Assembly: GCA_900318865.1 (NCBI GenBank)
Contig: ONMF01000011.1
Location: 1-64,000, forward strand
DNA: 64,000 bases
Origin: an uncultured Prevotellaceae bacterium
GTDB taxonomy: Bacteria > Bacteroidota > Bacteroidia > Bacteroidales > Muribaculaceae
Reading direction: 5' to 3'
Under the pieces are notes generated by a model that searched no databases, was not told where the DNA came from, and worked only from the letters and a program-made list of their open reading frames with translations. Below are positions 48,097-53,154 of the stretch, in pieces (position 1 is the first letter of the stretch; every line of letters starts with the position of its first letter). Position numbers and translations under genes: made by a program.

Positions 48097-49017
48097 TCAG
48101 TCGTGGTTCAGGTCCACCACCAGGCCCTCGGCGGCCAGCCGTGTGGCCGGGAACACCTCCTGTGCCTCGCGCAGCAGCGGGGTCTCGTCGTCGTAGCGAT
48201 TAGAGAAATGCCCGATGATGAGCTGGCCCACTCCTGCGTCGCGGGCCACCGTGGCGGCGTCGCGGGCGGTGCTGTGATAGCGCGCATGGGCCTGGCGCGC
48301 GCAGTCTTGGGCGTAGGTGGCCTCGTGATAGAGCCAGTCGACGCCTTCCACGGCATGCACCACACGGCGCGATGGCATGGTGTCGCTGGCGTAGGCGTAG
48401 CTGCGGCAGGGGTCGGGCGGCAGTGTGAGCTCGGCATTGGGCACGGTGTGCCCGTCGGGGGTGATGTAGTCACTTCCCTGGCGCAGTGAGTTCATGGCGT
48501 GGTGTGGCACCTGCCAGCGCTGCACGGCCTCGGGCTTGATGTGCCGGAGCTTGGGCTTTTCATCAAATCTGAACCCCACAGCCGGCACGCGGTGCCGCAG
48601 GGGGAAGGCGGTCACCTTGATGGCGTTGTCCTCGTGGACGATGGCCGTGCGCGTGCCGATGACGTCCCATTCCACGGTGAAGGGCATCTCGCGGCAAAAG
48701 TAGTCGAGCATGCGGCCAAATTGTTCCTTGCCGTCGGCAAAGGTGTGGATGGTGAGTGTGCCGCTCTTGCCCAGCAGCGCCAGTGTCGACAGCAATCCCG
48801 GCAGCCCGAAGCAGTGGTCGCCGTGAAGATGGCTCAGGAAAATGTGCGTCAGGCGTGAGAACTTGAGGCGCTGGCGCCTCATCTCCAGTTGCGCCCCTTC
48901 GCCGCAATCAATCATCATCAGGTGGTCGCGCACGTTCAGCACTTGGCACGACGGCAGATGCCGCAGGGTGGATGTGGCCGAGCCGCAGCCCAGTATGTTC
49001 AGTTCAAATCGTGTCAT
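48097..49017 (-). CDS. rnz: Ribonuclease Z
   Basis: The 306-residue metallo-beta-lactamase-fold protein opens with ELNILGCGSATST. It has the zinc motif FLSHLHGDHCFGLPGLLS (HxHxDH) near residues 61-78 and further ligands in AYASDTMPS and IIGHFSNRY. It cuts precursor tRNAs at the 3' side of the discriminator base. This suits a genome in which the nearby tRNA-Ser lacks an encoded CCA. The predicted promoter lies inside the tandem repeat just upstream, with a leader of only a few bases. Confidence 0.93.
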   Translation of the reverse strand: MTRFELNILGCGSATSTLRHLPSCQVLNVRDHLMMIDCGEGAQLEMRRQRLKFSRLTHIFLSHLHGDHCFGLPGLLSTLALLGKSGTLTIHTFADGKEQFGRMLDYFCREMPFTVEWDVIGTRTAIVHEDNAIKVTAFPLRHRVPAVGFRFDEKPKLRHIKPEAVQRWQVPHHAMNSLRQGSDYITPDGHTVPNAELTLPPDPCRSYAYASDTMPSRRVVHAVEGVDWLYHEATYAQDCARQAHARYHSTARDAATVARDAGVGQLIIGHFSNRYDDETPLLREAQEVFPATRLAAEGLVVDLNHD

Positions 49018-49029
49018 GGTTCAGGAGTG

Positions 49030-49060
49030 CAAAGTTACGAATAAACGAGCGCAGAGCAAA
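49030..49060 (-). promoter_or_regulatory. Promoter of rnz carried by repeat copy 1
   Basis: On the minus strand TTTG (49060-49057), a 19-base spacer, then TAACTTTG (49037-49030), a perfect match to the Bacteroidota consensus. Only 12 bases separate the box from the rnz ATG, so the leader is very short. The -33 box, spacer and most of the -7 box lie inside the repeat; the last two bases (TG) of the -7 box are outside it. Confidence 0.75.
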
Positions 49061-49105
49061 ATGAGAAACGCAGTTTTTCATTTCTATGCCGAGTGAGAGT
49101 AACTT
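49032..49105. repeat. Promoter-bearing repeat, copy 1 (rnz-proximal)
   Basis: A 74-base unit with terminal inverted repeats AAGTTAC/GTAACTT. The centre holds an 11-bp hairpin, AAATGAGAAAC/GTTTTTCATTT with loop GCA and one G-T pair. Copy 2 follows after a 12-base linker (GGGCGGCAGCCA), with a period of 86 bases. Confidence 0.9.
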
Positions 49106-49117
49106 GGGCGGCAGCCA

Positions 49118-49191
49118 ACGTTACGAATAAACGAGCGCAGAGCAAAATGAGAAACGCAGTTTTTCATTTCTATGCCGAGTGAGAGTAACTT
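49118..49191. repeat. Promoter-bearing repeat, copy 2 (distal)
   Basis: The interior of copy 1 is repeated identically 86 bases on, including the hairpin and the -33 element. The left end reads ACGTTAC instead of AAGTTAC, so the minus-strand -7 box becomes TAACGTTG, one base from consensus. The trailing GGGCGGCAGCCA is present again. Confidence 0.9.
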
Positions 49192-49207
49192 GGGCGGCAG
49201 CCAGCAT

Positions 49208-49244
49208 TATAAAAAATGTGCAACTGTTTCACAACAGCTGCACA
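49208..49244 (-). terminator. Terminator-like hairpin downstream of the NAD(P)HX repair gene
   Basis: A 12-bp stem with one mismatch (TGTGCAACTGTT/AACAGCTGCACA, loop TCAC) is followed, on the minus strand, by a T-run. It lies about 130 bases beyond the stop at 49374. The interval 49245-49373 is AT-rich; it contains only a 12-codon frame (MKKLVAKLSLFS) at 49270 that I do not call as a gene. Confidence 0.55.
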
Positions 49245-49373
49245 CTTTAAACCTTAAAAATCTAATCCTATGAAAAAACTTGTTGCAAAATTAAGTCTTT
49301 TTTCTTGATTGTCAATAGTTGAGACTCACAATAATAGGTAATTATACTTTCGAATTGTTAAATCCGCCGTTTT

Positions 49374-52382: not shown

Positions 52383-52934
52383 TCAGTTGCAGCCTTCGCA
52401 TCCGTGGCAGTGGTCGTGCTCGCAGTCGCAGCCACAATCGCAGTGGTGGTGCTTGGGGGCCAACTCTTCGGGGGTGGCATCGCGCACCAGCAGCACGCGT
52501 CCGGCATACTTCACGCGCTCCCCGGCCAGCTGGTGGTTGAAGTCGAGCGTCACCTCTTTGTCGCCCACTTCCACCACGAGCCCGTCCATGCGGTAACCCT
52601 CTTCGGTCTGCATGGGCACCATCGCTCCGGGCTTGACCTTGGCCGCGTCAAACTTTCCGTCGATTTCAAAAATGCTCTTATCGAGCTTCATAACCAGGTT
52701 CTCGTCCTTGGGCCCGAACGCCTGGTCGGGCTCCAGGGTGAAGTTGAACTCAGCGCCCTGCTCCAGCCCGGCGATGCCGTCGGAAAAGCCTTGAATCATG
52801 CTGGGGTCATGGCCGAAGACGAAGCAATCGGGGTGCTCGCTTGTGAAGGAGTAGACCAGTGCGTCGGCATCGTCGGCCACAACGAAAATGTCGTAGGCCA
52901 GCTCAATGTATTTGCCAATTGTGATTTGTTCCAT
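52383..52934 (-). CDS. SlyD-like FKBP-type peptidyl-prolyl isomerase with metal-binding tail
   Basis: The 183-residue protein has a split FKBP domain with the IF (insert-in-flap) domain of SlyD: YDIFVVADDADALVYSF, FGHDPSMIQGFSDGIAGLEQGAEF, then FGPKDENLV and LDFNHQLAGERVKYAGRVLLV. The tail, HHHCDCGCDCEHDHCHGCEGC, is rich in His and Cys and should bind Ni2+, Zn2+ or similar ions. SlyD proteins fold proteins and deliver nickel to hydrogenases. Its promoter lies in the repeat at 52965, and it converges on adk. Confidence 0.92.
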   Translation of the reverse strand: MEQITIGKYIELAYDIFVVADDADALVYSFTSEHPDCFVFGHDPSMIQGFSDGIAGLEQGAEFNFTLEPDQAFGPKDENLVMKLDKSIFEIDGKFDAAKVKPGAMVPMQTEEGYRMDGLVVEVGDKEVTLDFNHQLAGERVKYAGRVLLVRDATPEELAPKHHHCDCGCDCEHDHCHGCEGCN

Positions 52935-52962: not shown

Positions 52963-52993
52963 CAAAGTTACGAATAAACGAGCGCAGAACAAA
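52963..52993 (-). promoter_or_regulatory. Promoter of the slyD-like gene carried by repeat copy 3
   Basis: On the minus strand TTTG (52993-52990), a 19-base spacer and TAACTTTG (52970-52963). The arrangement is the same as at rnz. The leader to the ATG at 52934 would be about 20 bases. Confidence 0.75.
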
Positions 52994-53039
52994 ATGAGAA
53001 ACGCAGTTTTTCATTTTTTATGCCGAGCGAAAGTAACTT
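52965..53039. repeat. Promoter-bearing repeat, copy 3 (slyD-proximal)
   Basis: A 75-base unit closely matching copy 1, with the same AAGTTAC/GTAACTT ends and the same central hairpin. It differs by a few bases (GCAGAAC for GCAGAGC, one extra T, GAGCGAAAG for GAGTGAGAG). Confidence 0.9.
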
Positions 53040-53050
53040 GGGCGCAGCCA

Positions 53051-53125
53051 ACGTTACGAATAAACGTGCGCAGAACAAAATGAGAAACGCAGTTTTTCAT
53101 TTTTTATGCCGAGCGAAAGTAACTT
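53051..53125. repeat. Promoter-bearing repeat, copy 4 (distal)
   Basis: A tandem copy of copy 3 with an 86-base period and an 11-base linker (GGGCGCAGCCA). As in copy 2, the left end reads ACGTTAC, weakening the -7 box to TAACGTTG. One further change (AAACGTGCG) lies in the spacer. Confidence 0.9.
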
Positions 53126-53154
53126 GGGCGCAGCCAGGTGTGCTCGTGGCGACG

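Follow-up and report, generated by a model that had tools for sequence, protein, structure and literature searches.

The hairpin units that stand in tandem upstream of rnz in an uncultured Prevotellaceae bacterium are most probably (at a probability of roughly 0.7) copies of a non-autonomous mobile hairpin element which inserts inside the -7 box, at TAnn^TTTG (the caret marks the junction), of promoters that already exist. The units belong to a repeat family of 61-90-bp hairpin units, present in dozens of copies per genome in this gut (rumen) group, and the downstream genes appear to keep their start site while the control region is swapped.

The tandem pair upstream of rnz and its relatives

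In the window (the whole stretch of DNA that was analysed, 64,000 nucleotides), rnz (ribonuclease Z; ORF at 48097..49017, minus strand) is preceded on the same strand by a gene-proximal unit (49030..49115) and a distal unit (49116..49201) of 86 bp each, arranged head to tail without a gap and identical at 85 of 86 positions. The sole difference is CAAAG/CAACG, i.e. TAACTTTG/TAACGTTG, so that the proximal unit, whose right end ...TTCGTAAC is joined to the target's TTTG, reads TTTG-N19-TAACTTTG and ends 12 nt 5' of the ATG, and the distal unit reads TTTG-N19-TAACGTTG. The 3' arm of the inner hairpin (49059..49083, minus strand) ends at the TTTG (49057..49060, minus strand) that is the predicted -33 box for rnz; the distal unit has an identical copy of this hairpin (49145..49169, minus strand). 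These data confirm in the sequence the coordinates, the strand and the promoter described in an earlier note on this DNA, and also its near-identical tandem copies with a period of 86, although the repeated unit is 86 bp and gapless instead of 74 bases; of the 11-bp hairpin with a three-base loop that it had proposed, the 3-nt loop is retained and the DNA fold gives 10 pairs with mismatches. The family has another tandem pair in the window (52963-53134, minus strand), about 28 nt 5' of a slyD-type FKBP gene (52383-52934). The only Rfam match was a FopS-like sRNA gene beside the rnz pair (window 49208-49279, minus strand; RF04319, 44.4 bits, E 2.8e-4), which is below the gathering score of 56.

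The 23-mer consisting of spacer and box occurs 4 times in the window versus 0 times in 100 shuffles, and TTATTCGTAACTTTG, with at most 1 mismatch, was found 45 times in the genome versus 0 times for a reversed control. A DNA search gave 55 full or partial matches in the host genome (2.5 Mb) and a sequence model (R1) gave 50. With the same model, 90 of the 101 genus genomes searched contained matches, several of them at least 50 copies, and, at E<=0.001, 35 further genomes of the order, outside the genus, were matched, tandem arrays included (36/295 when the host is counted). Scanning of contigs for the inner junction detected two uncultured Bacteroidales MAGs, RUG14590 and RUG12435, and one further match on a Burkholderiaceae contig that was taken as chance. 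The RUG prefix stands for rumen. A search of viral contigs for the exact promoter end of the unit gave no match. The units are short, non-coding, dispersed and numerous, and possess terminal inverted repeats (AAGTTAC/GTAACTT) that are short and nearly invariant in A1, as is typical of MITEs; as hairpin repeats with many intergenic copies they also resemble REP/RAYT elements. The earlier note's view of a small non-autonomous element or REP-like repeat is supported in that the family, with some 50 copies in the host and matches in most genomes of the genus, is a dispersed, REP/MITE-like repeat linked to promoters. The family was not described in the literature searched, a weak sign of novelty given that coverage was partial.

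Genes were scored around every TTCGTAAC[T/G]TT[G/A]-type match in the host genome, using gene calls from a simple codon-score script that misplaced start distances for a few loci (L027, L048, L089). All 33 proximal (TAACTTT) matches, which include four that consist of the box end only and are not full elements (L038, L088, L093, L094), face a same-strand gene start (median distance about 32 nt), and there is no case inside a gene. Another 20 array loci were inspected, most of them in other species, and there too every unit faces the downstream gene. The bias to gene starts, on which the promoter idea had been staked, is therefore present. Among the genes upstream of units, 14 have the same orientation and 15 the opposite one, and this absence of bias indicates that the unit belongs to the downstream gene. 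Of 34 proximal matches, 28 have a TTTG 19 or 20 nt 5' of the box, versus 1.8% of random positions. Proximal unit and target together thus display the consensus of sigma-ABfr promoters, TTTG near -33 and TAnnTTTG at -7 (PMC7366714), separated by about 19 nt, whereas ordinary sigma-ABfr promoters are not repeats. Many of the downstream genes, as read from their proteins, are housekeeping genes (rnz, valS, tyrS and genes for a ddl-type ligase, a fumarase-type and a dUTPase-type protein).

Filled and empty promoters in sister species

Orthologous promoters were compared between the host genome (G000) and the sister genomes G012 (16 genes) and G051 (20 genes) and, in reverse, 8 G051 loci were compared with the host; orthologues of rnz at 60% identity or more were present in 17 of 18 relatives. 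The rnz promoter of G051 is empty and reads TTTTTTATAACTTTGCAC (longer reading GCACATTTTTTATAACTTTGCACCCC), whereas that of the host reads TTTTTTATAA^TGCTGGC...(2 units)...TTCGTAAC^TTTGCAC (longer reading GCACATTTTTTATAA^TGCTGGCTGCC...(172 bp)...TTCGTAAC^TTTGCACTCC). As the rnz promoter of G012 (TATCTTTG) is likewise empty, the change is an insertion in the host genome. The -7 box TAAC^TTTG (49030..49037, minus strand) is the insertion junction according to this comparison, and the left junction (49202..49211, minus strand) would consist, relative to the G051 empty site TTTTTTATAACTTTGC, of the target half TATAA and a decayed GTTGGC (TGCTGGC). Comparable pairs were obtained at L020 (empty TTTTTTTCGTACCTTTGTAG, filled TTTTTTTTGTAAC^GTTGGCTACGCC...TTTTTTCGTAAC^TTTGTAG) and L045 (empty CAGTAACTTTGCAAACG, filled GGGTAAC^GTTGGCTCTGCCC...TTCGTAAC^TTTGCAAACG) and, in the opposite direction, at lgt, which is filled in G051 (CATTTTTGAA^GTTGGCTCCGCC...TTCGTAAC^TTTGCAAG) and empty in the host (CATTTTTTGATTAACTTTGCC). 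The box (TAnnTTT[G/A]) was kept at 6 of 6 loci filled in G000 and empty in G051, and TAnnTTTG at 4 of 5 in the reverse case. In nearly all remaining empty cases the box is retained and the sequence 5' of it differs; at several loci the upstream sequence is too diverged for a simple insertion to be visible. There is no clear target duplication, as at most TAAC is repeated and this possibly is element sequence.

These comparisons show that the element interrupts the -7 box, TAAC being on one side and TTTG on the other, and indicate that insertion is site-specific. Of the resulting promoter, TTTG at -7 and the 5'UTR are the target's own, and the remainder (-33 box, spacer and TAAC) is brought by the element. 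A complete promoter supplied by the unit, as had been proposed for rnz, does not agree with these results, because the sister species already possess the rnz -7 box at the same place. The empty rnz promoter, the ancestral -7 box of which adjoins the terminator of the FopS-like sRNA, lacks a TTTG at 18-21 nt; the filled promoter has one. The same sRNA-like sequence is found 5' of rnz in several relatives. At one gene (L268/L281), the sister species carries a different family, with GCACTAATTTTG ends, on the same box.

The best-surviving alternative, although rather unlikely, is that there is no mobile element and that a promoter sequence was copied from gene to gene, through recombination at short homologies or gene conversion with the box TTCGTAACTTTG as anchor, and was then duplicated in tandem by slippage. 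This box is common, units are homogeneous within an array and differ between arrays, orthologous promoters of sister species differ in hairpin type (L024, L031, L051), and at L019 and L020 the final ~10 bases of the unit are similar to the target, all of which is compatible with copying. The insertions at rnz, L020, L045 and lgt, however, are clean on both sides, begin with the constant left end GTTGGC and bring no other donor flank, and conversion with one anchor would not yield a fixed left boundary. Mixed A-B-A arrays at one promoter in rumen MAGs also argue against copying.

Junctions, arrays and hairpins

The sequence TAACGTTG was found at 28 of 30 distinct inner junctions in several species. 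What had been taken for a damaged -7 box in the distal copy is therefore the regular left end (GTTG) of the unit. If the unit begins with GTTGGC and ends with TTCGTAAC, insertion at TAAC^TTTG must leave TAAC^GTTGGC as left and GTAAC^TTTG as right junction, and when insertions recur at one site every inner junction becomes TAACGTTG, as seen. Alternatively, arrays may have grown by slippage between GTAAC repeats, which would give the same junction pattern. The GTTG change lowers pairing in the junction palindrome and so is not there to improve the hairpin.

Within the unit, two nearly constant flanks, GCCSAAGTTACTnnCRCTCGG and CTCGYTTATTCGTAAC, enclose a slot whose palindrome differs from copy to copy. 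The inner hairpin of a single copy is no more stable than shuffled sequences (fold, z -0.66), and the hairpin claim therefore rests on covariation: among 23 ungapped slots, 91.3% of cells were paired and 30 compensatory cells were counted versus 9.8 expected (0/500 shuffles), with far lower values in slid controls. At the inner junction GTAACGTTGGCTGCCGCCCAAGTTAC, an imperfect palindrome (49099..49124, minus strand, in the rnz pair), the arms also change together, being GGC/GCC, GACC/GGTC or GGCC/GGCC in the genus and GCGAT/ATCGC, GCAGT/ACTGC or GAGGT/ACCTC elsewhere, where the count comprises only four sequences. In other Bacteroidales genera the inner arm GATAC accompanies the box TATCTTTG, which indicates that the arm follows the box.

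Several related repeats were also observed. A second family (L021, L022, L025, L029 and L281 in G000) has the same inner hairpin and GCACTAATTTTG ends, its distal copies often being TAATTTTA and the gene-proximal copy TAATTTTG. In G000, the hairpin arm of the unit at L051, L049 and L092 is interrupted by a nested third hairpin element (AATAATGGCGGCGGCTCAGCAATAT...CCTTGCACATTA or CAATA); this is bordered by TTTG on either side, which suggests that a TTTG target was duplicated. Some arrays (L006, L011, L030, L182, L268) contain the repeat TTTTCCTCCTTCTTGCAAGGCATAGTCCAAGCGAGCTTGGATCTGCGCTTGCTGCGCGCGTCGG. In other Bacteroidales families, units whose arms are GTTGC/GCAAC (L240, L242, L243, L267) are apparently not at promoters and might be REP-like relatives outside the promoter niche.

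A promoter or operator module, in which units are retained because a regulator binds them, form a regulon and have spread by selection, would account for the strict promoter position and the fixed spacing and would suit the many housekeeping genes downstream. This explanation is improbable, as the sequence of the inner hairpin is swapped wholesale between copies while pairing is retained, the downstream genes are unrelated and presence differs between sister species. Even less probable is a role at the RNA level, as terminator or as insulator against read-through from upstream: the hairpins do covary and the rnz array does stand between the terminator of the FopS-like sRNA and the promoter, but half of the upstream genes are directed away and the hairpins, the inner one of which is AT-rich, lie 5' of the predicted start. 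On these grounds the terminator reading was rejected, and the hairpin position makes use at the DNA level likelier than use at the RNA level. A phase-variable invertible promoter with the AAGTTAC/GTAACTT ends as recombination sites can practically be dismissed, because the inverted ends do flank the -33 region but are short and no inverted copy was seen at any G000 or sister-species locus examined.

Proposed mobilisation and comparison with known elements

For insertion of a mobile element, the target would be the -7 box of promoters for the major Bacteroidota sigma factor, and the right end of the unit would bring TTTG for -33, TAAC as one half of the -7 box and, between them, a spacer of the ideal 19-20 nt. 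An insertion into TAAC^TTTG would remove the old -33 region and at once rebuild a full promoter employing the target's TTTG, start site and 5'UTR, and with such a right end insertion into a -7 box would be neutral or improving. Further units at the same site would generate head-to-tail arrays with an intact box in the gene-proximal copy only, and the junction hairpin would be formed by the box half and its inverted copy GTTAC. We infer that an enzyme inserts the units and that their promoters are active; both hairpins, that of the inner slot and that of the junction, would serve mobility, probably as recognition or folding features for mobilisation as DNA.

No mobilising enzyme was found, and no complete IS sharing the ends of the unit came up among the sequences inspected. 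At 10 loci for Y1 (HUH) transposases, one in the host genome and nine in relatives, no unit flanks the gene, and a Y1 transposase, although present, was therefore rejected as partner; G012, whose assembly is 83% complete, has many unit copies and no Y1 match. The single Y1 gene of the host (L148; G000 C27:121342-121677) has a YIKNQEKHH motif and in this resembles subclass 1.2 (PMC6006769). An integron attC cassette was also rejected, as the left end GTTGGCT/GTTGACC does not match the core site GTTRRRY.

Correia repeat enclosed elements (CREE) of Neisseria are non-autonomous, have about 100-157 bp and inverted ends, vary in presence between strains, are often located 5' of genes and can generate promoters, their mobilising mechanism being undetermined (PMC2649163). 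The unit shares with them its small size, inverted ends, position 5' of genes and predicted formation of promoters. CREE occupy varied positions, including coding regions, and cause a target duplication (PMC2649163), whereas the unit targets the -7 box itself, faces the gene in all copies, forms arrays and has a variable hairpin slot, and its junctions lie at TAAC^TTTG without a TA target duplication. BrickBuilt, a MITE of Porphyromonas gingivalis, is likewise an intergenic Bacteroidales element with tandem repeats and with promoter activity; it is constructed from 23-nt repeats, lies 49-591 nt from genes and has bidirectional promoters, and no box targeting is described for it (PMC4596501). 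CREE and BrickBuilt are the closest promoter-bearing small elements found, and promoter-box targeting is described for neither. REP elements with TnpA_REP (Y1), of which subclasses 2.4/2.6 occur in Bacteroidetes, are hairpin repeats with many copies per genome, and guides of the IS200/IS605 type pair with a short target (PMC6006769). The unit resembles them in its hairpins and copy number, and its GTTAC could pair with GTAAC as a guide, so that by analogy guide-target pairing would fit the match between arm and box; it differs in its promoter location, in flanking no Y1 gene and in showing no GTAG-type foot.

A fuller proposal, to which we would give rather less than even odds, is that the units may constitute a new class of site-specific promoter cassette of Bacteroidales, in which the inner arm is an inverted copy of the host's -7 box and its pairing would guide integration into any TAnn^TTTG, a recombinase or HUH-type enzyme would act in trans, the carried half promoter would make insertion harmless, and lineages would move to another target box through joint changes of arm and end.

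If true, targeting of a core promoter box by an element with the matching half promoter would make insertion harmless by design, housekeeping promoters would be naturally rewired with the start site unmoved, and the element might be put to use for the insertion of DNA at promoters of Bacteroidota. Promoters that look conserved in such genomes may be recent insertions.
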